A stretch of DNA of 47,106 nucleotides from Fibrobacter sp. UWH6 (GTDB lineage Bacteria > Fibrobacterota > Fibrobacteria > Fibrobacterales > Fibrobacteraceae). Positions within the stretch are counted from its first letter, which is position 1; each line of letters begins with the position of its first letter. The stretch lies in assembly GCF_900142465.1 (NCBI RefSeq), contig NZ_FRAX01000018.1:16000-63105 (forward strand), written 5' to 3'. The position numbers and the translations under genes were made by a program. Positions 10,463 through 47,106 of the stretch are shown one piece after another. The notes below the pieces were generated by a model, which saw nothing but the letters and a program-made list of their open reading frames with translations, did no database searches and was not told where the DNA came from.

Positions 10463-11318
10463 TTATAAGAAGCATTCATGAACATGCAGCTGGCCGTCAA
10501 GGATGGCGAAAACGACGAAGCGAGTCAAGCGAAAATATGCTTGCATATTTTCATTTGACGAGCGAGGAAGTTGCACGCAAAGCGTGCCACTCTACATGAT
10601 CGAAGTGAACCCCCGCGCCTCCCGCACCGTGCCCTTCGTCTCCAAGTCCATCGGCGTGCCTCTGGCAAGCTACGCTTCCCGCTGCATGCTGGGCGAAACC
10701 CTCGAAGAAATCGGCTTCACCGAAGAAGTCCACGTTCCGTACGTGAGCGTGAAGGAAGCCGTGTTCCCCTTCGTGAAGTTCCCGGGCGTCGACGTGACCC
10801 TCTCCCCGGAAATGAAATCTACGGGCGAAGTCATGAGTCTGGATCGCGACCGCGGACTTGCCTACCTCAAGAGCCAGCTGGCCTCCGGCAACCGCATCCC
10901 GGGCCAGGGCAACATCTTCGTCTCCCTCAAGGACGAAGACAAGGCCCGCGCAGTGCCCCTGATCCGCCAGCTGGTGGAACTGGGCTACGGCCTCTACGCC
11001 ACCCGCGGCACCTCCACCATGCTCTACAACGAAGGCATCAAGACCCGCGCAGTGTTCCGCATTTCCCGCGGCCGCCCGAACCTGCTGGACCTTATCCACG
11101 ACAAGGAAGTCCAGTGGATCGTGAACACCAGCGAGACCGGCGCCGAAGCCATGGTCGATGAAATCCAGATGCGCAGCAAGGCAGTGGTCAGCGGAGTGCC
11201 TATCACCACCACCATCGCCGCCCTCACCTCCACCGTCGAAGGCCTCATGGACAAGCACGACTACGGTAGGTTTGAGGTTTGCTCGCTGCAGGAGTATCAT
11301 AGACATATCGTCAAATAG
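10463..11318 (+). pseudogene. carB: Truncated carB copy with palindromic insertion (carB-2)
   Basis: The fragment starts abruptly at the end of element A and reads MNMQLAVKDGE from 10478. A 79-bp palindromic element (10511-10589) then breaks the frame (79 is not a multiple of 3). The frame after it runs LYMIEVNPRASRTVPFVSKS through the second ATP-grasp tail and the whole MGS-like domain to EYHRHIVK. About 730 codons that a full CarB would have upstream are absent. The intact part could be translated from 10503 (a 271-aa open frame), but it has no good ribosome binding site. Against carB-1 the last 143 residues differ at about 13 positions, while third codon positions differ much more often. 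That means both copies evolved under protein-level selection before this one was broken, as expected for a copy from a related strain. Confidence 0.85.
10511..10589 (+). mobile_element. Palindromic insertion element E1 in carB-2 (79 bp)
   Basis: The insert lies between GAT GGC GAA and CTC TAC ATG of carB. Hairpin 1 (10532-10551) is AAAATATG-CTTG-CATATTTT. It is enclosed by GTCAA...TTGAC pairing with a GCG/CAT internal loop. A linker, GAGCGAGGAAGTT, leads to hairpin 2 (10573-10587), GCACGC-AAA-GCGTGC. The same two-hairpin plan, with different stems, is seen at 46748-46839, 46864-46938 and 30443-30512. Confidence 0.75.
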
Positions 11319-15403: not shown

Positions 15404-15432
15404 AATATAACTAGGTTTTTTCAAAAAGTCAA
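15404..15432 (-). promoter_or_regulatory. Sigma70-type promoter of the TIGR02147-lipoprotein operon
   Basis: On the minus strand there are TTGACT (15432-15427), a 17-bp spacer and TATATT (15409-15404), 20 bp before the start codon at 15383. Confidence 0.78.
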
Positions 15433-15551
15433 CAGAAAATGATACAAAATATTAGTTTTTCTTTAATTTTACCAAATTTCATCAATCATTTAAAAATTTT
15501 ATTCCATATATAAAACAAATCTTACCTTATATGATACAGAAGAAAAAGAAA

Positions 15552-15573
15552 CCCCGTACCATTCGGTACGAGG
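15552..15573 (-). terminator. Terminator after amtB
   Basis: On the minus strand CCTCGTACC and GGTACGGGG pair around GAAT with one mismatch, followed by TTTCTTTTTC. It is about 70 bp past the amtB stop codon. Confidence 0.8.
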
Positions 15574-15642
15574 TCCTTGTTTTTATTATGGCTTTAACTT
15601 ATTGCGACGTTTGCCGCGAAAGTCCAGGCGGTTTTCCTGATC

Positions 15643-17052
15643 TTACATGTTGCTGAAGATCTGGAAGCCACCGTAGGATTCTTGACCGTGTTCTGCAAGA
15701 TCGAGACCGCGGAGTTCTTCCTTTTCGCTAACGCGGAGGCCCATAGTCTTCTTGATCACGATGAAGATCAGGCAAGCAGAGAGGAAGCAGGGGATTGCGT
15801 AGGCAACGACACCGAGAAGCTGGGTGGAGAAGTTGAAGCGGCCGGTGTAATCGAAGATACCAACTGCGAGGGTACCCCAGATACCGTTGACCAGGTGAAC
15901 GGAGAGAGCACCAACCGGGTCGTCCAAGCGGAGCTTTTCGAAGAAGTACACAGCCAGGACTACGATCACACCACCGATTGCACCAATGATCCAGGCACTG
16001 AGCGGGGAAACGGTATCAGCAGGAGCGGTGATTGCAACCAGACCAGCCAAGCATCCGTTGAGAGCCATGGTGGCATCGGGCTTCTTTGCGATAATCCAGG
16101 AAGTTGCAGTTGCGGTAATGATGCCAGCCACAGCAGCCAAGTTAGTAGTCACAAGAATCAGAGAGGTATCGAAGGGGTTGCCGGAGAGAGCGGAACCGCC
16201 GTTGAATCCCCACCAGCCGAACCACAGGATAAACACACCGATAGTTGCCAGCGGAACGTTGTGAGCGGGAATTGCATGAGCCTTGCCGTTCACATACTTG
16301 CCGATACGGGGTCCGAGAATGATTACGCCAGCGAGAGCGCCCCAGCCACCAACGGAGTGAACCAGTTCAGAACCAGCCAGGTCGTGGAAGCCTTCTGCAC
16401 CGAATGCAGCGAAGTTGGAGAGCCAGCCACCACCCCAAACCCAGGAACCAACTACCGGGTAGACGAATGCTACGTAGAAGAAGGTGAACACCAGGAAGGA
16501 GGAAAGTTTGATACGTTCAGCAACGGCACCGGAAACGATGGTTGCAGCGGTAGCGGCAAACATAGCCTGGAACAGCCAGTCAGTGAACAGGGAGAAGTGA
16601 CCGTTATAAGCGGCAGTGAAGTTGGCGGGATTCATCCAGTCGCCAATGCCGAAGCCTGCAAAGCCAAGCCAACCGTTAAATTCACCCGGATACATCAAGC
16701 CAAAGCCCAGCAATGCGTACACGGAAATACCGATAGCGGGAACAGCCACGTTCTTAAAGCAGATGTTGGAAGCGCTCTTTGCACGGCAAAGACCGGATTC
16801 AACGCAAGCAAAGCCAAGGCCCATGATGAACACCAGCATTGCGGAAATCATGATCCAGATATTTTCGGTCATGAAGATTGCTTCACCTACAGAGGGAGCA
16901 GCTTCTGCAGCGGGAGCGGCAGCGGCTTCCACGGCGGCAGCCACAGGAGCAGCAGCTTCGGCAACAGATTCAACAACAGCAGCGGCGGCGCTAGAAACGG
17001 TATCAGCTACAGCAGCGGCGGTATCGACGATAGTAGAAAGTGTATCAGCCAT
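15643..17052 (-). CDS. amtB: Ammonium transporter AmtB with Ala-rich N-terminal extension
   Basis: This 469-aa inner-membrane ammonium channel has about eleven hydrophobic segments from residue 66. The pore residues are recognisable: the twin histidines in LVHSVGGWGALAG and SVHLVNGIWGTLAVG, and the Phe/Trp gate region FAATAATIVSGAVAERIKL. Residues 1-60 are unusual, being almost entirely Ala, Val, Pro and Glu; they could be a cleaved leader or a flexible periplasmic arm. The gene lies 15 bp downstream of glnK, the usual pairing, so the PII protein presumably plugs the channel when nitrogen is plentiful. Expression probably follows the sigma54-type promoter upstream of glnK. Confidence 0.95.
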   Translation of the reverse strand: MADTLSTIVDTAAAVADTVSSAAAAVVESVAEAAAPVAAAVEAAAAPAAEAAPSVGEAIFMTENIWIMISAMLVFIMGLGFACVESGLCRAKSASNICFKNVAVPAIGISVYALLGFGLMYPGEFNGWLGFAGFGIGDWMNPANFTAAYNGHFSLFTDWLFQAMFAATAATIVSGAVAERIKLSSFLVFTFFYVAFVYPVVGSWVWGGGWLSNFAAFGAEGFHDLAGSELVHSVGGWGALAGVIILGPRIGKYVNGKAHAIPAHNVPLATIGVFILWFGWWGFNGGSALSGNPFDTSLILVTTNLAAVAGIITATATSWIIAKKPDATMALNGCLAGLVAITAPADTVSPLSAWIIGAIGGVIVVLAVYFFEKLRLDDPVGALSVHLVNGIWGTLAVGIFDYTGRFNFSTQLLGVVAYAIPCFLSACLIFIVIKKTMGLRVSEKEELRGLDLAEHGQESYGGFQIFSNM

Positions 17053-18758: not shown

Positions 18759-21700
18759 TTACCTCGAAATCAATAGTTTCTGTTTTTTAGTCCAAGTTTT
18801 CTTTTTCACACCTTCCGACGCAGGAACTTCGCAACGTACCACATAGTGATACAGCCCATTAGCAAGAAGGCGGTTACGATCATCGCGGCCATCCCAGCGG
18901 GTCACACCCGATACGGCATCCTTCAAGACCTTCACCAGACGGCCATTCTGATTGTAGATGAAAATGTTTACTCTAGAATCAGCGAAATTCTTAAAGTAGA
19001 AAGTCGTTCCCTTTTTACCCATGGGGTTCGGAGCATTGAAAACATCGGCCAGGCCCGTCTCCATCTCGTCAGTAATTTCGACCACCAACGTTTTCGTAGC
19101 AGCATTTCCAACAACATCCAGGGCCCTCACTTTAAACAAGTAGGATCCCGCAGGATATTGTTCCGTACTAAAGTTCATACGGACCTTAGCATATTTGGAA
19201 TTCTGTTCAAGATAAGGGCTTGGATGGAACGGATCCTGAACACCTTCAACTTCAAAGGAAATTCCCTCATCAGCCTGTTCCCTAAAATCGAGGGCCGTAG
19301 AATCTTCCACTTCAACTTGCAAGCACGCAGGAGCCTGAAGCTTTACGTTTTGTCCGTCAACAAAGTAGGTTGCCATTGCCCCCGATATACAAGACTGAAT
19401 CTTGATTGTGGGGGGAACAGTATCCTTCAAGGAATCTGCATAGTTGGATATTCCTGCGATTCTCAAATGTCCAATTAGGGAGCGGCCAACAGCAGCGGAT
19501 TTCTTTGAATACGCCCACGTTGTAAATTCCGCCAGGGAATCACCAAAGGACATTTTACGCGGGGTGACAAATTCTGTAGAGAACCGTCCATTCTTCACAG
19601 CCACTTCTTCAGAATAAATCAGAGGACCATTCAAGAACACTTCCAATTCTTCGTTCATCGAATTTTGCAAATCAACCGTTTTGTACGAACGGCCTTCTTT
19701 CAAGTTCAACACGATATATCCATCATCAAGACCATCTACAGTTCCAGACAAAGTCAATTTATCAAGCGCCTTAATCTGTTCCAGAGGTTTATCTAGTTTC
19801 ACTTTATATTCAGAAATCGGCAGACCAATGACCGGTTCGCCTAACAATACATAGCGTCCTTCATTATAACGCTGGTTTCCAGATAAAGTGGAATAACGTT
19901 TGGAACCTACGTAAGCATCACCAATGCGACGGACGGAATCAGAGGTCAAGGCAAAGCTCATGAAATTCAATCCGAAGGTTTTATTCTCCGAGGCAAAAGT
20001 TTCTCTAGTCGCACCAATGGAAACAATAGAACCTGCGCCATTAGCCATTAACATTTCTTCTGAAAGTGACGGAACAGTTCCTTCATCAAAACGGCCAACC
20101 GTACAGGAGAACGAAGCCAATATGGTATATCGTCCCTTATTAGAAAGTTTCTTAACATAGCTGGGCTTCATCAAACCTTCTACAGCCCAGTCCGTCTTCG
20201 AACCATGTCCATAGTACGTGGTAATCAGGGCTCCCTGGTTCAAAATACTGATAAAGTTTTCGGCAGCGAGTTTTTTTTGTCCAGAAGCATCCCGTTCATA
20301 ATCCACCAGGTAAATTTTCTTCATATCCCAGCGAATATTCTTTTCTTCAGAACGATCACTGATTGTTTTAGCCGTATTTTCCTGAAAAGTGGTATGAGGG
20401 ATATTATCGACACCGCCATTATTCCAGGCATCATCTGCAGCCAACAAAATGACAGAACGCCAACTAGAATTGTCAAACGTTTTCAGCATTTCATGATCTT
20501 TCGCCTTGCGAACATAGTTGGCAAACGCAGACGGAGACTGGGCAGGAATTCGCCCAACGGCAACATCCAGCTCATAAGGTCCAAAGCGAATCACTTCACC
20601 CGAATCCAGTACGCCATAAAAATCCTCGGACACATAGTCTTCATCCTGGTAGGTCGGGAAATGATTTGGCGTCAGTCGGCTGTTCATGCCGCGGTAATCG
20701 AAAGTTCCCGAGCCGACCAAAAGGACATAACGGAAATCGGGGCATACAGAGTAAACGTAAGACAGGTAGTTTCTAATTGCAACCGGAGAAAGGCGCCCTG
20801 CCGTGTACGTTCTGTAAATGTCTTCAAGATTTACTACAGAGGTGGCAATAGAACTTACAGCAGAACCGCCGGCCCTAAACTCAGCCAAGGCAACAGCTTC
20901 ATTAATAAAGTCAGGAGGAGCAATGATCAAATACTCCAACTTTGAATTAGGGCGAGTCAAATCCTTAAGGACACCGCTATTGGGTCTAGAAAAACCAGCA
21001 ACCCTCAAGTTCTCTCTAAACGCATCCGAACGAACGGCAAGATAGCGAACATCATCCTCGCTGGCCACGCTATCCTTGGCAACACCGTTGGATGAACGCA
21101 AATAGCCGACAGGCTGAAGATTCTTAAACTTCATGACCTGCGTACCAGACGGAACCGGAACGTTGATCACACCCGAAACATTTCCCGGCAAAAGCCATTC
21201 CGCAGAATCGACAACAGGCTTCCACTGGTAGGCAAAACTGTATCCGTTAAAACGATCATACTGTGTGCCGCCCGGGAGCATATCCAGGGCAATGGAATTG
21301 CCAGTCTTCTTAAGTTCGACGCCATCGATCCTAAAGTTACCCCCCGGCATCAAAGTCGTCGCCTCACGGCGGACTCTAGTTCCGTTCACCTCTACGGCAA
21401 AAAAGATGGAATCCATTCTTTCTGCATAACTACGGCTAGACATATAGATGTCTTTTTTCTGGTCATTTGCTTTTTCTGCAGAAGCATGACTTACAGAACG
21501 GCGGGGCATGTACGTTACGGCAACATACTGCCTGCCGCCTTCCACAAGGCCAGGCAACGTATACGTTTCATCCGTTTTTAACTCCGCAGCAGAAATCCGC
21601 GTGGAATCAAACCTCGAGTGCCAATGCCAGAACCATTCCTTACCTGAAGCGGATTCCCAGTTCAGGTCCTTTCCGTAATAAGTATCCCTAAGCAAGGCAT

Positions 21701-22844
21701 CTTCTTCGGCATGTACATAGCGCATCCACTCCACATCTCGGCCCTTTCCCGCAGGGGATTCAACCAAGTCCGAGAGTCGCTTGCCCTTACCCGTATATTT
21801 CTTTCCAAGAAGGAATCCCTGGTCAAAGGAATAGGGAGAATAGGAATGGAAGTAGTCCATCTCGCCGTTTTTAAACGACGGATTTTCGCGGTCACAACGT
21901 TTCCAGAAGCCGTTTCCGTATCCAACAAATACAATGGAGTCTCCCTCGCCAAAAGTTCCGTCAGCCTTGGAACTAGAAGGAGAATGGTCTCTAACCTCAA
22001 TGGGGATTTCAAAAATTTGATTGGGATTGCGTTCCGCCGCGCCAGGACCAATTGCCGCAAGGGTATCCTGAGACGAACCATATAGGCAAATCTTATCTAC
22101 AGGTATGCCCACGAGATCGTCTTCTCGTTGAGCGGAAACCATTGCCGCACGAACACTTCTATACTCTACAGCATACAGGCCATCTTCAGAGAACGAGCCA
22201 AGCTTTTTATCGCCTACAAAGAACTGTGCCAGGAATTCAACGTCGGAGTAATCGCTAGAGGCGGACTTGCGAAGGCTTTTCTGCAAAGCCTTCTGGTTCG
22301 CGCCAAAGCGCGAAGCCCCGTTCACGTTCAGTGCACGGGCAAGTCCTCTCAGACCAGGCTTCACACCTGCAGCCCGTCCGTTAAACTTGACGTTCAGTCT
22401 AAAGTTCTTGCGAAGTGCAACAGAGTTTCCTCTTTTCACGTAAAGAGGCACCCGGATATCCGTAAGCCAGAGGCCATCTCGCTGAACTGCTTCAGACATC
22501 TGAATCGGACCAAAGCCAAACGACACCGGCTCCATTCTTTCCGGATCAGCACAGACAGGCTTGCCCAATTCAAGCAGACGCTCATCAGATATGAAAACCT
22601 GAGGCAATTCCTTCGTCGGCAAGGCAATGCTATACGTTCTAAACGGAACACCGTTTCCATCGAAATAAGTGGCATTTTCCGGTCGGAAAAAACCACCCTT
22701 GGAACCATCGCAATCCAGCACAGCCGTATTTGCGACTCCATCATCCATCACAAAGCGATTTTGGGAATCCTCCACCACTTTCGAGGCAAATGCAGGCACC
22801 GCCAACAGCGCCGCAAGAACAAAATTTGATATTGAAAACTTCAC
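18759..22844 (-). CDS. C25 (gingipain-type) peptidase, PorU-like
   Basis: This 1361-aa protein has a signal peptide (MKFSISNFVLAALLAVPAFA). The C25 catalytic domain spans roughly residues 640-1000. The presumed catalytic His is in ITTYYGHGSKTDW (about 878) and the Cys in ASFSCTVGRFDEG (about 912), with the usual spacing. An N-terminal PorU-like beta region precedes it. The C-terminus ends in a FlgD-like beta sandwich (NIFIYNQNGRLVKVLKD, then TRWDGRDDRNRLLANGLYHY). PorU is the outer-membrane sortase that removes C-terminal signals of type IX cargo and attaches them to the surface. The length and domain order match PorU better than secreted gingipains, but a related C25 protease cannot be excluded. 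Neighbours are exported proteins rather than porV. Confidence 0.78.
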   Translation of the reverse strand: MKFSISNFVLAALLAVPAFASKVVEDSQNRFVMDDGVANTAVLDCDGSKGGFFRPENATYFDGNGVPFRTYSIALPTKELPQVFISDERLLELGKPVCADPERMEPVSFGFGPIQMSEAVQRDGLWLTDIRVPLYVKRGNSVALRKNFRLNVKFNGRAAGVKPGLRGLARALNVNGASRFGANQKALQKSLRKSASSDYSDVEFLAQFFVGDKKLGSFSEDGLYAVEYRSVRAAMVSAQREDDLVGIPVDKICLYGSSQDTLAAIGPGAAERNPNQIFEIPIEVRDHSPSSSKADGTFGEGDSIVFVGYGNGFWKRCDRENPSFKNGEMDYFHSYSPYSFDQGFLLGKKYTGKGKRLSDLVESPAGKGRDVEWMRYVHAEEDALLRDTYYGKDLNWESASGKEWFWHWHSRFDSTRISAAELKTDETYTLPGLVEGGRQYVAVTYMPRRSVSHASAEKANDQKKDIYMSSRSYAERMDSIFFAVEVNGTRVRREATTLMPGGNFRIDGVELKKTGNSIALDMLPGGTQYDRFNGYSFAYQWKPVVDSAEWLLPGNVSGVINVPVPSGTQVMKFKNLQPVGYLRSSNGVAKDSVASEDDVRYLAVRSDAFRENLRVAGFSRPNSGVLKDLTRPNSKLEYLIIAPPDFINEAVALAEFRAGGSAVSSIATSVVNLEDIYRTYTAGRLSPVAIRNYLSYVYSVCPDFRYVLLVGSGTFDYRGMNSRLTPNHFPTYQDEDYVSEDFYGVLDSGEVIRFGPYELDVAVGRIPAQSPSAFANYVRKAKDHEMLKTFDNSSWRSVILLAADDAWNNGGVDNIPHTTFQENTAKTISDRSEEKNIRWDMKKIYLVDYERDASGQKKLAAENFISILNQGALITTYYGHGSKTDWAVEGLMKPSYVKKLSNKGRYTILASFSCTVGRFDEGTVPSLSEEMLMANGAGSIVSIGATRETFASENKTFGLNFMSFALTSDSVRRIGDAYVGSKRYSTLSGNQRYNEGRYVLLGEPVIGLPISEYKVKLDKPLEQIKALDKLTLSGTVDGLDDGYIVLNLKEGRSYKTVDLQNSMNEELEVFLNGPLIYSEEVAVKNGRFSTEFVTPRKMSFGDSLAEFTTWAYSKKSAAVGRSLIGHLRIAGISNYADSLKDTVPPTIKIQSCISGAMATYFVDGQNVKLQAPACLQVEVEDSTALDFREQADEGISFEVEGVQDPFHPSPYLEQNSKYAKVRMNFSTEQYPAGSYLFKVRALDVVGNAATKTLVVEITDEMETGLADVFNAPNPMGKKGTTFYFKNFADSRVNIFIYNQNGRLVKVLKDAVSGVTRWDGRDDRNRLLANGLYHYVVRCEVPASEGVKKKTWTKKQKLLISR

Positions 22845-29108: not shown

Positions 29109-29912
29109 TTATGCAATAAGTTTCTGCAATCGGTAAGCTACTGGAGTCAAATAGCCCAGACTGCTGTGCAGGCGTTTGCGATTGTAGAACAGTTCGATGT
29201 ACTTGAACAGGTCCTCCCTGACCTCATCAATATCGGCATAGGATCTATGGTGGACTTGTTCCTTCTTCAAGCTCGCAAAAAAACTTTCCATCGCCGCGTT
29301 ATCGTACGGACAGCCCGGAGCACTCATGGACGGCACTATGCCAAGACTATCAAGCATGTTGCGATATCCTCGGCTACTGTACTGCGAGCCTCGATCCGAA
29401 TGGAAAACTAGGTTCTCATGCGTGCCGCGGTTCGCCACAGCCAGATATACCCACCCGAGATTCGTGCGGATATACGTGATATCGCCACACCAAAACTGGT
29501 TAAGACCGAAAGGCGCAAAATTACGTTGCAAACGATTTTCCGCAAACATCCCGTCGCTCTTGCCCGGTTTGTAAGGCTTAAACTTCTTGATGGCAACAGA
29601 GTATAGGCCGTTTTCTCGCATTATGCGCCGGAGTTTGTACTCATTGATTTGAACGCCTCTTTCATTCAAGACCTTTAGAAGTTTCGTACAACCATAGACT
29701 CGATGGTGTTCCTCGAACACATCGCGTACAGTTTGTACAAGGTCGGCTTCCCGTTGCCTCCGTTGATTTCTCTTGGTTTCCTGCTTTGACCACTGGTAAT
29801 AGGAACACTGGGGTATTCCTAGCGCTTTGCACATCTTCTTCACCGAATGCTCCTGACGTAACTTGTAGACAGCCTCGCATTTCAGTCGTGTGGTCGCATA
29901 AGAGCGAGCCAA
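29109..29912 (-). pseudogene. IS3-family transposase OrfB, internally deleted
   Basis: This 267-aa DDE integrase-type transposase reads RVYGCTKLLKVLNERGVQIN and RRIMRENGLYSV, then the first catalytic Asp in FWCGDITYI, the second in VFHSDRGSQYSSRGY, and Glu in YDNAAMESFFASLKKE. Between WVYLAV and HSDRGSQY only about ten residues remain, where IS3 relatives have roughly 45 (the VIDL.SRKVVGW region). So strands of the catalytic core are missing and activity is unlikely. The first codons (MARSYATTRLKC) begin inside a palindromic insertion, so the natural OrfA-OrfB frameshift junction has been destroyed. Confidence 0.85.
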
Positions 29913-30100
29913 GCGAGTGTCGCAAAATTATGCTTGCATAATGTTCCCCAAAGAGGATAACTCAGCTACGAAACTAAAGTTTCAAGTTTCGTATATATGA
30001 CCGAGTGCAGCCGCTGACGCCGTAGGCGTCAAAGATGTGCAGGGATTTCCAGAAATCCAATCGCCTCAATCATGTCGATTTGCAAGCTAGCTTGCAATCG
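29893..30100. mobile_element. Cluster of five hairpins between orfA and orfB (E2, E3)
   Basis: Read on the plus strand, the cluster begins GAGCGAGCCAAGCGAGTGTC and contains hairpins at 29924-29945 (stem AAAATTATG, loop CTTG), 29967-29993 (TACGAAACT stem), 30015-30031 (TGACGCC-GTA-GGCGTCA), 30043-30058 (GGATTT-CCAG-AAATCC) and 30078-30098 (TTGCAAG stem). The linker ATATGACCGAGTGCAG between hairpins two and three matches ATGACCGAGGTGCAG of E4. It looks like two or three nested copies of the same two-hairpin unit. Confidence 0.72.
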
Positions 30101-30419
30101 CCGCGATATTCGGCTCATAGATTTTTTTTAGGATTTCTACGGTTTCCCGTTCCTCGGCAAGTTCCTTTTCTCTTTGTTTTAGTTTCCGTTCCAGTTCACG
30201 GTTCTTTGTCGCAAGTTCTTCAATGGAGACTTTCTTGAGTCGGTGTTCTTCTTCGTATGAAGGCAAATTATTCTTCTTTCTGTAATCCTGGACCCATCTG
30301 CATACGGTATTGGCCGTGACGCCGATTTCCTTCGCAAGTTTCGTCGCAGACTTTTCACCTTTCAGGACGAGTTTTACGGTCTGCAACTTCATTTCTTCAT
30401 TGTAATGGACTCTAGACAT
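30087..30419 (-). CDS. IS3-family OrfA, HTH protein
   Basis: This 110-aa protein starts MSRVHYNEEMKLQTVKLVLK at 30419, with GAGG upstream; the frame is open for 35 more codons that come from the palindromic element and are not expected to be translated. It has an HTH (SATKLAKEIGVTANTVCRWV) and a leucine-zipper helix (ELATKNRELERKLKQREKEL). In intact IS3 elements OrfA continues to the end of the LKKA helix and is joined to OrfB by a -1 frameshift. Here the end (EILKKIYEPNIAAIAS) runs into the hairpin cluster, so the original C-terminus is replaced. Confidence 0.82.
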   Translation of the reverse strand: MSRVHYNEEMKLQTVKLVLKGEKSATKLAKEIGVTANTVCRWVQDYRKKNNLPSYEEEHRLKKVSIEELATKNRELERKLKQREKELAEERETVEILKKIYEPNIAAIAS

Positions 30420-30442
30420 TGTTTTTCCTCTGGTTGAGAATG

Positions 30443-30512
30443 AAATGACTATGTCATTTTGATTCTGCACCTCGGTCATAAAAACATGTAAACATGTTTT
30501 TGCGACGCTCGG
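30443..30512 (-). mobile_element. Palindromic element E4 in the IS leader
   Basis: On the minus strand this reads CCGAGCGTCGC, hairpin 1 (30480-30501, stem AAAAACATG, loop TTTA), ATGACCGAGGTGCAGAATC, then hairpin 2 (30443-30459, AAATGAC-ATA-GTCATTT). The bases outside hairpin 1 also pair: ACC...GTC with GAC...GGT. E5 keeps GTC/GAC but has GGT and ACC exchanged, a compensatory change. Confidence 0.75.
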
Positions 30513-30552
30513 TTTGGCAATCATTTAACAATGAATATGACAGCATGATTTA

Positions 30553-30580
30553 CCCTCTTATTAAATCACGCCATAGTCCA
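30553..30580 (-). repeat. IS3 right terminal inverted repeat
   Basis: On the minus strand it begins TGGACTATGGCG and ends TTAATAAGAGGG. carB-3 coding sequence stops exactly at this end. Confidence 0.75.
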
Positions 30581-30977
30581 ATGAGGAGCGGGCGATCCGG
30601 GGTAACGCCAACAGCCTTGGCAACGTATTCGCGGAGCATGTTTTCGTCGTAGATGACTTCCATGCCGCGGCCGCCAAGCACGAAGCTGAGGCGGATCATC
30701 ACCGGGTAGCCACCGATCTGCTTGACGCAAGCGAGGGCTTCGTCGATGTTGGTAGCCATGCCGCTTTCCGGCATCGGGATTTCCAGTTGGTCCATCATCT
30801 TGCGGAACAGGTCGCGGTCTTCAGCGATGTCGATGGAATCGATGCTGGTACCGAGAATCTTCACGCCTTCGTCGCTGAGAGCGCGGGCGATGTTCAGCGG
30901 AGTCTGGCCACCGAACTGCACGATAACGCCAGCGGGCTGTTCCTTCTTGTAAATCTGGAGAACGTCGCCTACCATTT
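30581..30977 (-). pseudogene. carB: Central carB fragment (carB-3)
   Basis: About 130 codons come from the second half of CarB: MVGDVLQIYKKEQPAGVIVQ, FGGQTPLNIARALSDEG, KILGTSIDSIDIAEDRDLFR and VMIRLSFVLGGRGMEVIYDE up to GVTPDRPLLI. The fragment is bounded sharply by element B on its 5' side and by the IS right end on its 3' side. Reading frame and residues are well kept, so truncation is recent. Without the rest of the protein it cannot function. Whether it derives from the carB-1/2 or the carB-4 subtype cannot be decided, as the regions do not overlap. Confidence 0.9.
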
Positions 30978-31104
30978 GGGCGTTCCCCGCGCTCCGCACG
31001 GGTCGGGCTATATTTTATGGGTCGCACGGTTCACTCCGTTCCCGCCCAACCTCATAAAAACGAGCCCACAGTCTCGGCCCCAAGGGGTCACTATCCCTAA
31101 CGCG
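30978..31104 (-). repeat. Hairpin-rich repeat, element B (127 bp)
   Basis: On the minus strand this runs from CGCGTTAGGGATAGTGACCC to AAAATATAGCCCGACCC, a hairpin CCCGTGC-GGA-GCGCGGG, and GGGGAACGCCC. The first 15 bases and last blocks equal those of element A, but every hairpin between has a different sequence. As in element A, the GGGGAACGCCC end is fused to carB sequence. Confidence 0.75.
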
Positions 31105-32647: not shown

Positions 32648-35600
32648 TCACAGAAGGGTCAACAATTTTGTCGATTTTAAGGCTCCATTAATACGAAGCG
32701 CAAGATAGGTATTTCTCATGTTGATTCCAGACCAATCCACACGAATGTACTGTTGTCCCGGGGCAAGAGTTCCCGTATAGACATGACGAACAGGAATGCC
32801 GCCGGCATTGATCAAATCCAGAGATACATAGGTATATGCATTCATCGTTACCACGAGTCCATCCTCTGTACGAGTGATCGGAATAGAATCATCCGGAGCG
32901 GTATAGCCAAAATCTATGGCATACGATGAATCAGGACTTCCAGACCCATTGGGTGTTTCAACTAGGACCAATTGTCCCGTAGGCCAGCTAGGTTCTTTTC
33001 CATAAATCACATTGCCGAGCGAATCAACCACATTGAAGCCTACCGCTTCTGCAACAGAGGTGGTCATTCCGACATGCCCCGGGTCATCATTCGCGTTCCA
33101 ACCCATTTGCCAATCTGGAAGATGCAATGTAAAAGCACCCTCTCGATTCCAGGACATTCCCGAGCCAAGAATATTTTCACAATGGAGATTTACCATCCAC
33201 CGTCCATTACCGAGATTGGACTTTTCTGCGGTCACACCTTGCGGAAGACCGTCTCCATAGATTTCCATGACTGGAGTAAATCCAGCTTCGACATAGAAAT
33301 AGTAACGGACATCATATCCGGCAATAGGCATGTTACCTGTATTTTCAACCTTCAGATAAATTTCACTCGCTTGCGGATCTCCCGTCGTCCTAGCACGGAC
33401 ATCCCTTGCAAGTACACGGGCCGATGTGACATCCTCAATTTCATCTTCCATTTCAGCGCAGGAGCCGCCAATCAGGTTATTGTCTTTGTCAAGGACGATT
33501 ATACCCTTGTTTTCAACAAAGTCTCTAGCCGCATTAAGCACGAAAGATGGGTCATCCGCAGAATACCAGCCATTCCATTCAATATTGTTCAGTCCAAAAA
33601 GGGGACCTTCGCCAAAGAACGGTGAGCCATTTGCCTGAATTACGGAATCAGCAAAACGCCACTCCACATACCCTGTCCGATTGCTTTCGGCATGGACCGA
33701 GAGTGTCGAACTATCCTGAGGGAAGAAGGCCGATGCATGAACCAGAGCAGGAACTTCGCCACGGAAGTAATAGCGAACAGAATAACCATTGATAGCCTCG
33801 CCTGATGTATTCACGATACGGACTCGCGGACGCAACATGGAAGAATCGGCAAAGCCTTCGTAGCGAACAAACGTCTTTACCTTGCTAGATTGTACAGGTT
33901 GCAGGCCATTATCACCAGCCATATTCCACGCAATATCCGATGCGGAAATATCATCCGTAGCCAAGGCCAAGCCAGCAATATCGACTCCAGCAGGCACAAT
34001 CAATTCGAAGTTTTGTCTTCCAGAGGCAAGTTCAAGAGCCATATTTGATACCGTATAAGCTCTCCATACCTGAGCAAGCGGCATCACACCCTTCTGCTTT
34101 GAACCGGCACCGAATTGAACTTCGGCATTTTCCAAACTTGCAGAACGCGCATAGAGCACCAGATTGTACTTTCCGGCCTGTTCGACATTAATCGTCATAT
34201 TCAATTTCGCATCCTTAGCCGTCGAACGATAGAAATTATTGCCGACGACCGAGCAAGTAAATTGACGGTCAAAGCCATTCACAACATCCATGTCATTTAC
34301 ATTAACAATAATCAGTTGCGATTCCTCGCCCTCATCCGTAACAGGTTTCGATAATTCCAGCACCTGTTCAGTACTCAAGGCCGAAAGATACATGCGAATG
34401 TCCGCAATATGGCCAACAAAGCCCTCCATCGTCGAACTTTCGCCTACCGAGAACTTTCCGTTGAACACTCGATTCATAGAAATTCCAGCCGGTTTTGTCA
34501 TAACCATGTTCCCGTTCACGTAGAAATTGACATTGGAAGAATCAACCGTGACAACCACATGGCTCCAAGCCTTTTCTTGAGGCAACACATTTTCAGCAAG
34601 CCAAATATGGTTCTGTTCGACAAGGCGCATATCTTTACCCCTAATCTGAATTTCCATATTACGGCTAACACTGGAGAAGCCCATTACACGGAGCCAGTCA
34701 TCTTCCTGCGGATAGCCAAGATTTATGCGGGCCTCAAACGTGTAAGAATCAGATACACCCAGATTCACATTGCTGTTGGCAACAGCCTTATCTCCGTCTC
34801 GATAGAAATAAAGGCCGACATCGTTAAGCCAAGGCATAAACATGGACAGGTTCAAATCATGGGCCGTCCCAATCATCTCGCGAACAATTTTTCCCATACC
34901 TTCCCTTGCAGGATACCACAAGGCGAGAGATTGCGGATACGGATAAAGTTTAGACGATTCATAGGTTATTTCTTCATAGTTATGACCATAATCTTCCACA
35001 TGCATTGTAATGGCAAGATTACATCCGATGCAACTTGCCAACTCCTTACGGCTAAGACGAACCTTGGCAGAGACATTACCATTGGAATCAGGCATCATCG
35101 AAACATCCTTCAATGGTATCGAACTAAATACAGAACGAATATCCACCTTGGCAATTCCCGATTCGGAATCTTCAAGTTTCGCCGAAACCACAAAGATTCG
35201 ATCAAGTACATCGGAGGAATCAACAACATTCCATGAAGAGACCTTGGGACGGGCAGAATCCGTATAGACCTTCGGACCCATCACCTGCATTTCATTACCA
35301 AGGACAGACATGCCCAAGTAGGTCGACTCGTACACACCATTCTTTATCTTGCCAACAGAAGAACCTCCTATTTTCCTAGAACCATCGTAAACAATCGTGT
35401 CCGGGATTTCGGCACGAATTTCCGTAATAAGCCTATCGTTTAAATACAACGAGACGATTCCGTCACCCGGCTGATTGCAACTAGCACCATAAGCCATGAA
35501 ACCATTGTCAAGACCAAGCCATACAGAATCAGACGGGGTAGAACATGCAAAGTTCGCCGGAACAGTCAATGCACGGGCAGCGGCAGGTGCCAAAGGCAAC

Positions 35601-38600
35601 TCCGAAGTATCGTTCTTGGCAATGACAAACACGTAGTTCGTATCCGTCATCGTTCCACGCCTAGGCAACTGCACATGGGCAATTTCATTGGCATCTAGGC
35701 TATAAGGCAACAGTTTTGCCGGAGTCACATCATTACTATCGTTCCACAGGGAATCGTTATCAACATACAGATTAAAATTTTTCAAGCCGATTACTCGAAC
35801 ATCACGATCCGATGTGCCTGCTATTGCCGGCAAGATTTCTAGACTGAAATCGGGGATTTCCGCCAATCTAGAATCCATGGCTGCAAAAACCGAGAACGTC
35901 TTTGTTACGCCGGAAATCAAAATATATTCCCATAGGTCGTCATTACCCGGATAGCACTTTGAATCATTCCATATTTCACATTCCGCGGTATCAAAGCCAT
36001 TGGCAACCGCTGCATGCCCGTCTGCACCAAGATATCCATACAGTACCTTGTCAAGCGGGATAAACTTTTTATTCGTAAAATCGACCTTGTAGAGTTTCAA
36101 GGTACTCGGCGTAACATTCATATCCCGCATCTCCGCCTTGGAAATCTTGATTTCAATGCGAGGCAACGTATCGCCAAACACCTTCGGAGGCAAAACTTCC
36201 ACAATCGACCCTGTTATTGGCACGTTGTTAAACACCTCGAAATGGTAGTCTTCGGCAGCAACCGTACGAACCGTAAAATCGTCACTCGAATCAAGCGTAC
36301 CTTGCGGGAACGTAACAGAAACTTCGTCAAACAGCGATGTGACCGTACCCTGCTCAGTATCCTTTACTTGCTTTCCGATTACCAGATTGTAGTGACTGCA
36401 ACTATAGTCGCCACCCTCATTATCGCCACCCCAGGTCAAAAGGAACTGTGTATTCCCTTGAAGCCTATTCACATTGAACCAGGCAAGTCTGCGTTCGCCG
36501 GACGTCTTGACTTCTATGGCAGAATCTACAACCGGATAATACACGGAATCCTTCAAATATAGAAGATGATATTTCGTCCCCGGTATCAAATTCGCACGTA
36601 TTTCCACAAGTTCCTTGGGGCGTTTCACATCAATTTCATTTTTGTATTGGATATTGACACTAGATGGAGTTGTTGCATTCCCGACAGCATCAAGATGTGA
36701 ATGGACAGAATCATCCAAATGAACCAGTCTTGAAGATACGACTTCAACATCCTTAATCCACGGATTACGAGTCCATTCTTTTTCCGCAGCCGTGCCATAA
36801 TACAAATTATTATCGGATTCTCTTCTATAGTTCACTCCGCTTTGATACCGATAAAGATGATTTATCGTGAGTTCCTTGGCACTTGTCCGTTCCGGCAACT
36901 GGGAAGTAAAATCCAAAGAACGTCGATACCTGACATCCTGTTTCCAGTCGGATGCGGCAATATAAAGCGTATCGTTGGAAATTTTGTACTTCTCATTCGG
37001 GACACCTTTGAGCAATGTCGTATAAGTCGGAACAACATCACCGCTTATCGAAATCGGCAAAGCAATATAAGCACTAAACTTTTTCGAACTTGCATCATAA
37101 GAGTCTGGGCTAATAGACAGCGATCTAACAAGCGAATCACCATTTACAACCTTTGCGGAATCAAGATGCAATGAAGAAAGCGAACCTGGATCAAAATCAA
37201 CGTCAGAATTAGAATACAAAATCAAATTATCAGGATTAGTCTTAAAATTGGAGAGATTTTTGAAATAACTGGTAGTATCACCGTTCAAAGTGAACTGTTT
37301 CAACCAATCAACATCGCTGTAGTCATTATAATAATGATGAATCCTGGAACCCAGCAGATAATATGTTTTCCCATTACCCGGGTTATTTACGCCTTTACCA
37401 CCTGCAGGATAATCTAAACGTACGGATTTATCCGCATTTTCGGCAAATACGGCCCCAAAAGACTTGTTCATGCTGACATAGAAATCAATATCGCCAGGCA
37501 TAAAGTAGTCTGTTTTCAACGAATCACCATTATTGGTTATGTTCTGTGCATAACCTGGAGCAAATATATGCGCAATAAAATGGCGACTATTATAATTTAT
37601 CGTGTCATTTGGGTCGTTGTAGAATTTTAGAGTGAATCGGGATACCTGTTCAAACCCGACACCTTCATCCGCAAAAAGGAATGTATTTCCACCACCAGAA
37701 AGTTCACTAGCTTTAAAATATGGTAAATGCTGCGTTTCAAAAGGAGTCAACAAACCATAACTATGCTTAAGATTCCATTGAGAACCATCAAATAGGTTTT
37801 TCGCTCTCGATAAATTCATCGTTAGAGAATTTTTTTCGAGCGTATGGAAATATCCATCTTTTTCACCATAGAGGCTTATATTCTTAGAGTCAAAACGAAT
37901 GGTACGGTTCACAAGATTATCATAGCCGAAAGGAGCATTCCAATACTCGGGAGGAATGGTTAGTTTGATACTAAACTTCAATTTTCTATAGCGAGTGTTA
38001 TCACAATGATCTGGATTAATTTTTTGTTCATTTGTATAAAAATTGGATGCTGAATTTCCTACAAGTTCTACAGCAAACAGCTCCCTATTGGGGTCGTACT
38101 GATTTGAAACAGAATCTTGCGTATATATACACTGATGGACTCCATTTTCATTTACCTCTTCATCTGCCGCGCAAGAGCCCCGTTCTTTTCGAGGGAATGG
38201 CAAATACCCACCTTGTCCCGGAGCCGGAATAACTACATCATTAACATCAATTTTAGACAAGTCCCATAAAGAGTTTGTCTTCAACAGAGTATATGCGAGC
38301 AATGATCCATCCCATTGTCCATTATTATAAAAAGAATCCCATTCTCTCCATGATGTAACAAACATATCAAACTTCGTTTTCTTGCCAAATTCCGCCAAGT
38401 CTGGCCCACCTAAATAGCCATATTTTTTTGCAGCATCAATATCAATATCTATAGATGTTGACAAGGACTGCTCATCAAAATGTATCGGTCTAACATCGGC
38501 AAGAGGTTCATTCCTTGTATCTGTGGTATCACACCTTCCATCAGTACAAGACTGGATCCACCTATCTACCCATATGACTGCAACCAAATCCAAACTTTGT

Positions 38601-41600
38601 CTCTGTCTCTTAATACCTAGACTGAATCGTTCCGGCGTAAAGCCAAGCGGATATTGCGTTCCACTAAATTTTGTAACGAGATTCGCCTCGCGAATATTCT
38701 TGGGCAAGTATTTTCCACTCAATTCAGCATCAACAAAGTAATCCGCGATGGGTTCATACCTGTTGACAACTCGTCCCAAACTGGAATCAGTAACGGCCTC
38801 GGAAACATAAATGCTCACGGAATCGGTATGCGACCTGTCACCCGGAGTTTTGTCAATCATGCTATTTGTAGTAATTACCGACAATAGCGCTATCGCAGAA
38901 TCACCCTTAGGTTTATTTCCTCCCGTCGTATCAATGGTTCCAGCAGGGAAAGCCTTGATTACAACCTTATAAGTCCCAGCATCTACAGGATTATTATCCG
39001 AATCACGCTTCCCGTTCCATGTTACAGAATACGCCTTGCCGTTAGAATGCGCTGCAACGAATTTATTTGTCTCCAGCACTGAGATTGGATTATCGGCGGA
39101 GTCACGAATTTCAATGTTCACATAAGCATCTTTATAAAGAATGCCATAAGGAATGCTCATGGAACCCAATTTATACGAAGTCGGGTCCTTCACGATTAAA
39201 GGATAAACAGGCAGACTGTTGCTTAGCACGACCTTAACATCTTGAGAGGTCAGATCAATTTCCTTCGTCTGTACATCGACGAACGCATTTTCACCATCAA
39301 GTCCAGTCACCTCGGCATAAACCTTCACCTTTCCATCGGCCGGGAAGAACCGGGAATCCAGGCGGCCATCCCATGTAAACGACAACCCAAAGGCTTCCGG
39401 ATGAACATTCCAGCCCGTCTGCAGCACATTCATCGTATCGACACCAATGTTCTGACCGGCAAGCGTAAAGCCGGCCATTTCACTAGACCCGAAATACACA
39501 GGTACGTTATGCCCAGCCAGTGTATCGATATGGCTGCCAACTATACGGAATGCACCTTCCGACTTCATCACGACATGTCCAGAATCACCCGAGAGAATCA
39601 TGACATTGTCGGTTGTCGTAGGCGGCATCAACATCGGATAACCGCTCAAGTATTCCGAAGTAATTTCGGGGAAATTGTTCATTTGAGATTCAACACGGCA
39701 CCCCTTGTCAAGATTCATGATGACACTGCCCTTCAGGGCCATGCACGTTTCGCCAAAAGACGAAGACAAGAACGAGACTTGCAATTCAGACGTGTCGGGC
39801 AAACCGGACCATCTCAAATGATACAAGCTGTCATCTTGATAGAACCACACCCCAGCAGGGGACTTTGTGGAATCATAAACCAATCCAGCAGTCAAATCAT
39901 AAGGCGAACCATAATACGGGTTTGCCCAGGCTCGTTCAACCGACCTGTCAAAAACACCGACGCCCTTCGAGTCTTCTGCATAGATACGCAGCATGTACGC
40001 ACCAGACGGGTTACCCGTTAGACGGAGCGACATATTGACAGAATCCACCCCGACAACCATGGAGGTTTTCGAAACATCAAATGCGACTACCGGTTTTACA
40101 CTATCCGCCGCAAGTTTGCCCAAAGTTATAAGGACCGAATCCGTACGCCAGGAACAACTATCGCACGTCTTGACCCCAAGTTCAATATAATACTGCTTAT
40201 CATAGATGGTATCTCGATAGAAATAACCCAACACTCCTTCGTTACTCTGCGCAATTTTCGATATATTCGCGCTATCCTTCGAACGGTTGGCAGCAACAGT
40301 CATGATTTTGTCTGTTTCCCATTCCGTCGAATTTGCTTCCCTATACCTTAGACGATAAACAGCGGAATTTTCGTCATCGTCAAAATCGGGCGGAGCAATG
40401 CCCACAATCGGGATAACCGGCATCTTTAAATCACCAGATTCCGTAGGAGAAACAATATTCGGATGACGTTTTCCCACAAAGAACAGACTGGTGCGAACAC
40501 CGACATTTCCCGCCAGATCCACACAGGCTGCTTCAAAATAGCGTTTCCCGTCATTTGTTCCAATCAAGCCCTTATCAAGATAGAACTTGAATGTTTCCGT
40601 ATGCAATACGGAGCCAGTAATTTCACGCCACTGATTTTCATTGCCGCCGCCAATAATTCTATAGCTACACTTCATACCGGTACGGTTGACAGCCACATCC
40701 TTACTTTCGGAAACTTTGATGGAGGCTTCGAACGGTTTTGTAGATGCAGTATCATAGACGGGAATCGTACTTATAAGGCCTTCAATTTGCGGGGCTGTTC
40801 GGTCAATCAGCATCTTTTCAGGATACGACTTAATCGGAGTTGATGTATTCTTCGCCTCGTCACGAGTAACGGCAAGAACGCGATACTCGCCATCTTCCAA
40901 CAGAAGCCCCGTATTTTCGGTCCAGCTACCATCAACCTGGTCTTTGTCAAGCCACACAGAATCACCGGCACGGTCAACAGCATTGCTGTCAGGAATATGC
41001 TTAAACAACCAGTTTATAAAGACGGACGTTTCACTACGGCCGTTCAATGCTTCACGAACGGAATACGATATGTTCAGGAGGCTATCCTTAGACACATACA
41101 CACACTGATTGTCCTGGCGGGCTAGTTTCGGCAAGGAAGCGTATCTAGACACCTTCTGAGAATCCATCGGGGCTGCAACCAAATCAAATTTGGGCAAAGC
41201 TGGCGCAGTTTTATCTACCCTAAATTCTACCGTATCATAACCGACATTCAACTTGTGGTTATTAATGACCGAATTCCAGTCCGTTTCACTAGCGGTCTGC
41301 TTGACAACCTTTTCGAACAGCGCGTTCACCGCTCCGTAGGCAGTCAAGTTCGGCAAAGCATAATCTATCGCAGCCGCACTTAAACGATACTCACCATCCG
41401 TCAGAGATTTCTTGTTTACTCCATCCCAGGTTACAGCAAAGTCCTTCGAGACGACATCGTAAAGGAACGGCAATTTTGCATCAGACACCTTGTTGTAGGT
41501 TCCTCCTTTCTTCTGTTCAAGAGTCCATTGCATAATACGGATATCGGCGGCATCCCTGTTTTTCGTTGTCAAGGAATCATTACCATCGACCTTTACACGG

Positions 41601-46612: not shown

Positions 46613-46747
46613 TTTACGTTACACTTCCTCAATGGAAGCATGATACTCCTGCAAGCTCTTCACTTCGCCCTTGCCAGCCTTGGCGGCCGCAATGCCCTTG
46701 ACGGTGTCGAGAACGGCGGCGAGAGTGGTGATGTAAGGAGTCTTGTA

Positions 46748-46839
46748 TTGGACGCCTTTGGCGTCCGTACTGCGGTTCGGTCATACAAAAATAGCTTGCA
46801 AAGCGCAAGCATTTTTGTGCGACGCTCACCTTGCGTACT
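46748..46839 (-). mobile_element. Palindromic insertion element E5 in carB-4 (92 bp)
   Basis: On the minus strand this reads GGTGAGCGTCGC, hairpin 1 (46785-46818, outer arms ACAAAAAT/ATTTTTGT, inner GCTTGC/GCAAGC), ATGACCGAACCGCAG, and hairpin 2 (46750-46766, GGACGCC-AAA-GGCGTCC). GTC/GAC and GGT/ACC pair around hairpin 1. It splits AAT|TAC of carB and shifts the frame by two. Confidence 0.8.
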
Positions 46840-46863
46840 ATTGATGGCAGCCTTACGGATGGC

Positions 46864-46938
46864 GCATGGGCATAGCCCAAATGCTTGGCTCAGCCATGCC
46901 AGAAAACAAGTTTTCTGTCGCGGCATTCGCCTTGTGCA
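46864..46938 (-). mobile_element. Palindromic insertion element E6 in carB-4 (75 bp)
   Basis: On the minus strand there are ATGCC, GCGAC, hairpin 1 (46901-46916, AGAAAA-CTTG-TTTTCT), GGCAT pairing with ATGCC, a linker GGCTGAGCCAAGCATTT and hairpin 2 (46868-46878, GGGC-TAT-GCCC). It lies 24 bp upstream (in carB sense) of E5 and keeps the carB frame. Confidence 0.78.
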
Positions 46939-47106
46939 TTTGTCATCGGCAACAGCGCCGCGGCGAGCCCACGGGGTGTTGATGATGAGGTTCACCTGCT
47001 TGTTCAGGATGACATCCAGAACGTTGGGGCGGCCTTCGGCGATCTTGTTCACCACTTCGCACTTGACGCCAGCCTTTTCGTAGAACTTGGCAGTGCCTTC
47101 GGTTGC

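Follow-up and report, generated by a model that had tools for sequence, protein, structure and literature searches.

The closest described counterparts of the elements reported here are short DNA repeats and insertion sequences that act as hairpins. Cleavage of E. coli REP sequences by TnpAREP requires a conserved mismatch in the stem (PMC8266576), and IS608 is cut 3' of a short target that is read by a guide located 5' of the hairpin (PMC5934647). CGTC-tagged REPs have also been surveyed, in a study that does not mention Fibrobacter (PMC3733652). In the open-access papers searched, which fall short of a full literature search, no earlier description of the present elements was found. We analyzed a window of 47,106 nucleotides from Fibrobacter sp. 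UWH6 (contig NZ_FRAX01000018.1, here C18, positions 16000-63105), the far end of which is also the contig end. Read on the minus strand, E4 is ACC-GAGC-GTC-GC-(AAAAACATG TTTA CATGTTTTT)-AT-GAC-CGA-GGT and E5 is GGT-GAGC-GTC-GC-(34-nt hairpin)-AT-GAC-CGA-ACC, identical to the readings from which the original prediction had proposed a folded RNA or single-stranded DNA. Both copies share the GTC/GAC stem, the GA.../...GA internal loop and the GC/AT mismatch, and their outer pair is switched, as that prediction held. Its observation is correct and understates the case.

Copies in the window and their distribution

R1, a covariance model seeded with nine sequences (E4 and E5 among them), retrieves exactly six sites in the window, E1 to E6, with E-values from 5e-19 to 1.4e-6 (Table 1). 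E4 is located in the leader of the IS3-type orfA, and a second copy of this leader with E4 occurs on contig C27. E1 adjoins a carB fragment. Apart from the elements, a GC-rich stretch at window positions 31000-31100 (minus strand, GACCCATAAAATATAGCCCGACCC...GGAACGCCC) resembles C18:5850-5950 and may be another repeat. The window also encodes, on the minus strand, a C25-type peptidase with a weak type IX secretion signal (18759-22844) and a 3751-aa open frame (32648-43903).

Table 1. Copies of the element and associated features, in window positions.
Feature	Position	Strand	Details
E1	10509..10587 (ends approximate)	+	core 10514-10567; uninterrupted GTCAA/TTGAC inner stem; hairpin 2 GCACGC-AAA-GCGTGC
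E2, long hairpin-1 region	29902..30032 (ends approximate)	+	core 29907-30010; hairpin 2 GACGCC-GTA-GGCGTC
E3	30047..30124 (ends approximate)	-	core 30058-30119; A-T replaces G12-C
E4, full unit	30443..30523	-	outer stem GATT/AATC; core 30465-30518; hairpin 2 AAATGAC-ATA-GTCATTT
E5, 93-nt insertion in carB 3' copy	46748..46840	-	core 46770-46835; R1 score 66.7 bits
E6, 76-nt insertion in the same carB 3' copy as E5	46866..46941	-	core 46883-46936; CTTG loop
ORF composed of E1 and carB 3' part (MGS domain)	10503..11318	+	
IS3-type orfA (30087-30524) and orfB (29109-29912)	29109..30524	-	E2 and E3 lie between the two
carB fragment split by the IS3-type element that bears E4	30550..30999	-	
carB 3' copy bearing E5 and E6	46620..47106	-	continues past the contig end

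The same genome contains at least 38 R1 matches at E < 0.01, and a fuller search gave at least 43 at E < 0.001. All 80 searched genomes of the gut bacterium Fibrobacter carry copies, with minimum counts per genome ranging from at least 5 to at least 72 matches, as do 13 further genomes from five other genera of the family. Copies are thus common to six genera in all, and among the other genomes searched in the phylum, none gave a covariance-model match at the threshold used. Across the family, an element spans roughly 70-130 bases. The near-complete Fibrobacter genome G042 holds at least 81 copies; among the 44 examined with a simple ORF caller, 33 are intergenic, and divergent genes flank none of the 31 that have both neighbours. 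Within gene remnants, either orientation relative to the gene is seen.

Conserved fold and covariation

The unit folds into a long hairpin that consists, from the base upward, of an outer stem, a GYAA/GMAG loop, stem A, a GA/GA loop with a bulged base, stem B, a GC/AT mismatch and hairpin 1. A second hairpin usually follows the main one and closes the 3' end. The G12 of GAG pairs with the C of CGA, so that the Y after G12 is a bulge, and this pair covaries as well (A-T in E3 and E6).

Covariation was examined on 135 matches from other genomes, 111 of which are distinct. Double changes occur at all 13 modelled pairs (386 cells), and 95.8% of these cells remain paired, compared to at most 48% when the partners are slid by one to three columns, although the numbers overstate the count of events: the sequences were aligned by fitting them to the model, and relatives among them are not independent. 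The covariation score of 0.700 drops to 0.204 in shuffles and to no more than 0.099 in slid alignments, and in none of 500 shuffles was the percentage paired, the score or the count of double-changed cells as high as observed. The outer pair, which the original prediction expected not to be broken freely, is indeed held: of about 330 cells at the three outer pairs, 4 are non-standard. Neither outcome named as a refutation of that prediction, a lack of covariation or freely broken outer pairs, was observed.

A control that is free of the model-fitting weakness is provided by an exact pattern, in which only the two flanks of hairpin 1 are fixed and the hairpin itself is left free. A scan of 84,980 species genomes yielded 99 stretches, of which 79 have a hairpin in the free part. 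The other 20 come from unrelated taxa and look like chance matches. Among the titles shown, nearly all hairpin-bearing stretches are labelled Fibrobacter; the exceptions are termite Treponema and single contigs of Clostridiales, Elusimicrobia, Bacteroidetes and Bacteroidales. One Treponema-labelled genome has six copies, and the copies under non-Fibrobacter labels may be real or misbinned. Stretches L105, L160, L166 and, presumably, L181 lie on contigs labelled Treponema or other non-Fibrobacter taxa, which may reflect either mislabelling or transfer. Carriage by viruses was considered and rejected, as all 15 exact-pattern matches on viral contigs lack the hairpin.

The unpaired letters are the most conserved part of the unit (GA 97-98%, the facing GA 98-100%, GC 96%, AT 96-97%). 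The stem cells comprise 1817 Watson-Crick pairs, 28 G.T and 13 A.C. At the second pair of hairpin 1, G.A or A.G mismatches are frequent (33 and 18 cells, respectively), while A.A or G.G almost never occur. An outer stem of at least 5 bp is present in 112 of 187 copies (about 27 expected from mismatched flanks), and hairpin 2 was found in 144 of 187, compared to 92 for upstream flanks under the same loose test. The pattern is beyond chance and the fold is conserved across copies: as the stems vary in matched pairs while the unpaired letters are fixed, it is the folded shape that is preserved. Repeat families are mostly discovered through their sequence; with this element, whose stems are nearly unconstrained and which keeps only its fold, the usual repeat searches fail, although it is present in all 80 Fibrobacter genomes searched. 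The many natural variants offer material for learning what an enzyme that binds folded DNA reads.

Insertion as DNA and the carB and thrS copies

E4, E5 and their relatives insert as DNA and are non-autonomous mobile elements of 67-93 nt where measured. The empty site of E5, CATCAA^GTACAAG, is found in paralogous carB copies. Copies of carB without the E6 insertion also exist, and the E6 insertion is shared with C18:6815+. When the carB copy at C18:6050-7041 is aligned to the uninterrupted one at C18:1-975, separate insertions are seen with carB resuming on both sides. Seven insertions, in carB copies and two in a thrS copy, measure 67, 67, 67, 76, 79, 79 and 93 nt; for thrS, the uninterrupted form was deduced from the coding sequence rather than aligned. 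Insertions into otherwise uninterrupted carB copies and thrS coding sequence therefore identify the elements as mobile DNA.

Most measured insertions start after AA and finish in AA, a pattern that equally fits a 2-bp target duplication. Exceptions are E6 (GATGAC), which lacks the left AA, and the thrS insertion at C14:61197, which ends in CC or CCA. Independently of these insertions, 72% of 187 copies have an A at position -12 relative to stem A and 70% have one at -11 (background about 25-30%, and about a quarter to a third further out), which places the 5' boundary ten bases ahead of that stem. One to three tandem units occur at the guaA 3' end (the gene being recognized by its C-terminal sequence alone); their order varies among species, and repeats of the end of guaA separate some of them (L130, L157, L164, L167, L118, L182, L187, L162, L110 and L074). 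Longer direct repeats at some loci such as guaA fall outside a scheme of cutting and joining at AA.

The genome of strain UWH6 contains carB in many partial copies, located on contigs C18, C6, C32, C39, C36 and C1 (for the window, see Table 1). Several contigs end near carB model position 679, as if the repeated region broke the assembly, and a run of N lies within the intact carB of contig C18 at about 15420-15998. The carB region is possibly an integration hotspot for islands. Elements can be dense: the carB stretch C18:6000-7222, about 1.2 kb long, contains four or five, and a 2.1-kb region surrounding a thrS copy of another genus (L255) gives ten model matches. Element-dense displaced carB and thrS copies, with codons that are otherwise nearly intact, were observed in more than one genus (L092 6000-7222; L255 4000-6600 and 11800-12800; L253; L256). 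This density could reflect preferred targeting, a burst, or survival of copies in which homology to the intact gene is interrupted. The codons of the carB copy are nearly intact (28 synonymous and six other codon differences, no stop in 260), and for this reason a functional, spliced gene was considered; it was rejected because three quarters of the gene, on the 5' side, are missing from the copy.

Alternative readings, moving enzyme and known systems

The elements are probably non-autonomous mobile DNA that folds as a single strand and of which the unpaired letters would be read by a host or mobile-element protein, a reading that draws on comparison with known systems. On whether RNA or single-stranded DNA is the folded form, which the original prediction did not decide, recognition as folded single-stranded DNA is favoured by the few G.T pairs, the loop types and the insertion as DNA. 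By the insertion data the element is in the first place DNA, and it may also have a role in RNA. So small a share of G.T pairs would be unusual in RNA. Tetraloops of hairpin 1 are CNNG in 123 of 150 cases, 101 of them closed by G-C, and those of hairpin 2 are often cGAAg or cGTAg. CNNG and cGAAg/cGTAg-type loops are unusually stable in DNA, and gCUUGc is also stable in RNA. The CTTG loop noted earlier in E1 (10514+), E2 (29907+) and E6 (46883-) is present, but it is no specific sign of RNA, as loops of this kind are favourable in DNA too. Folding energies do not decide the matter because both DNA (z -2.7 to -5.1) and RNA parameters (z -5.2 and -6.3) predict the fold. A replication-strand bias is expected of single-stranded DNA elements; in G042, about 25 copies run with and 15 against replication, which is suggestive in one replichore and not in the other.

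An unlikely alternative is a structured RNA with a function in transcripts (in 3'-UTR stability, termination or the binding of proteins), spread by ordinary transposition and keeping its fold for the RNA. The RNA energies, the abundance of gCUUGc loops and the mostly intergenic copies of G042, with none of 31 between divergent genes, agree with such a role. However, G.U-type pairs make up only about 1.5% of the paired cells, copies inside gene remnants take both orientations, and many loops are CTCG or other CNNG rather than CTTG alone. Nor did an Rfam covariance search of the window match any of E1 to E6 (three weak sub-threshold matches lie elsewhere), and a known Rfam RNA family was rejected on this ground. 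The low G.T share could alternatively stem from template-switch repair of palindromes. Taken further, replication template switching that copies one arm onto the other would generate neutral palindromes without selection for the fold, a distinctly improbable origin. Such arm correction is a known type of mutation (PMC7202029), and changes are nearly always from one Watson-Crick pair to another with few intermediates. Yet arm copying should erase mismatches, whereas GA/GA and GC/AT stay unpaired at 96-100%, and copies are common to six genera.

Two further explanations concern the enzyme. A true REP/RAYT or IS200/IS605-derived element, with its Y1 transposase lost from many genomes, would account for the hairpin with a conserved mismatch, the 5' tetranucleotide, the clustering and the preference for gene 3' ends, and Y1 genes (PF01797) are indeed detected in 27 of 80 Fibrobacter genomes. 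They are, however, undetected in the other 53; of 40 good genomes, 15 have one and 25 give no match, and G042, despite its at least 81 copies, is also without a match. The three resident Y1/IS200-type loci of the UWH6 genome carry neither the element nor shared ends, and the tag is GYAA instead of GTAG. This origin is hence very unlikely, and RAYT/IS200 was rejected as a partner. Variable stems with fixed unpaired letters, and tandem units ordered differently among species, are also reminiscent of an attC system of the integron type, whose hairpin-only cassettes would be mobilized by a tyrosine recombinase. This possibility is extremely slight: no integron integrase exceeds the curated TIGR02249 cut-off in any of the 80 genomes, which contain generic tyrosine recombinases only, and there are no cassette ORFs between units; an integron was therefore rejected. 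An autonomous parent element was rejected too, as no transposase recurs beside the copies. Clustering of ORFs within 1.5 kb of copies revealed no recurrent transposase and, by eye, mostly housekeeping genes, and no transposase was seen by eye at the loci of low-copy genera of the family.

As no enzyme was found, the mechanism of the preferred mobile, single-stranded DNA element is proposed by analogy with IS608 and REP (PMC5934647, PMC8266576). The unit would fold once the DNA is single-stranded. A host or mobile-element protein would then read the unpaired letters in their helix context, not the stem sequence, cut after AA at both ends and join the unit after AA at a new place. Stems could drift freely provided that they still pair. 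Tentatively, and with some doubt, this may be extended to the whole family: minimal single-stranded DNA mobile elements, recognized by shape and unpaired letters, moved by an enzyme other than a Y1 transposase or an integron integrase, and dense in displaced carB and thrS copies beside genomic islands. As no known transposase is present, the search for the enzyme becomes a direct, testable question.

Compared to known systems, the Fibrobacter elements resemble REP or IS200/IS605 ends in how they work, without belonging to either. With REP/BIME and RAYT of E. coli they share a short imperfect palindrome with a conserved unpaired mismatch in the stem (here GA/GA and GC/AT, unpaired at 96-100%), a 5' tetranucleotide, clusters (here tandem units) and a mostly intergenic location at gene ends (33 of 44 copies by a crude gene caller). 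They differ in stems that change almost completely between copies, in the second hairpin and outer stem, and in their tag: REP has GTAG (or GTGG), whereas the last position in 187 copies is A in 93% and G in 5% (consensus GYAA). Moreover, REP has RAYT, while most Fibrobacter hosts are without a detected Y1 transposase and the three resident Y1 loci of UWH6 are not flanked by the repeat. With the ends of IS200/IS605 elements such as IS608, and with MITEs derived from them, they have in common that the ends fold, that the two junctions carry comparable short sequences and that guide-like letters lie 5' of the hairpin (PMC5934647); insertion may likewise occur 3' of a short target, although AA at most junctions would also fit a 2-bp duplication. 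The junction, however, is mostly AA rather than TTAC or TCAA, no transposase gene is present, and no ends are shared with a resident full element. As in integron attC sites, structure is conserved while sequence is free, folded single-stranded DNA would be the acting form and arrays occur; in contrast, there is neither an integron integrase nor cassettes, and the core boxes GTTRRRY and RYYYAAC are not visible in the column frequencies of the copies. Like CGTC-tagged REPs and Rickettsia palindromic elements, they are short palindromic repeats without a dedicated transposase that also occur inside genes (PMC3733652). Their fold is more elaborate, and the consensus has no unpaired CGTC tag, GGCGTC being found only paired, in hairpin 2 of some copies. 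Our verdict is that the Fibrobacter elements are a new, enzyme-orphan variant of short palindromic mobile elements.
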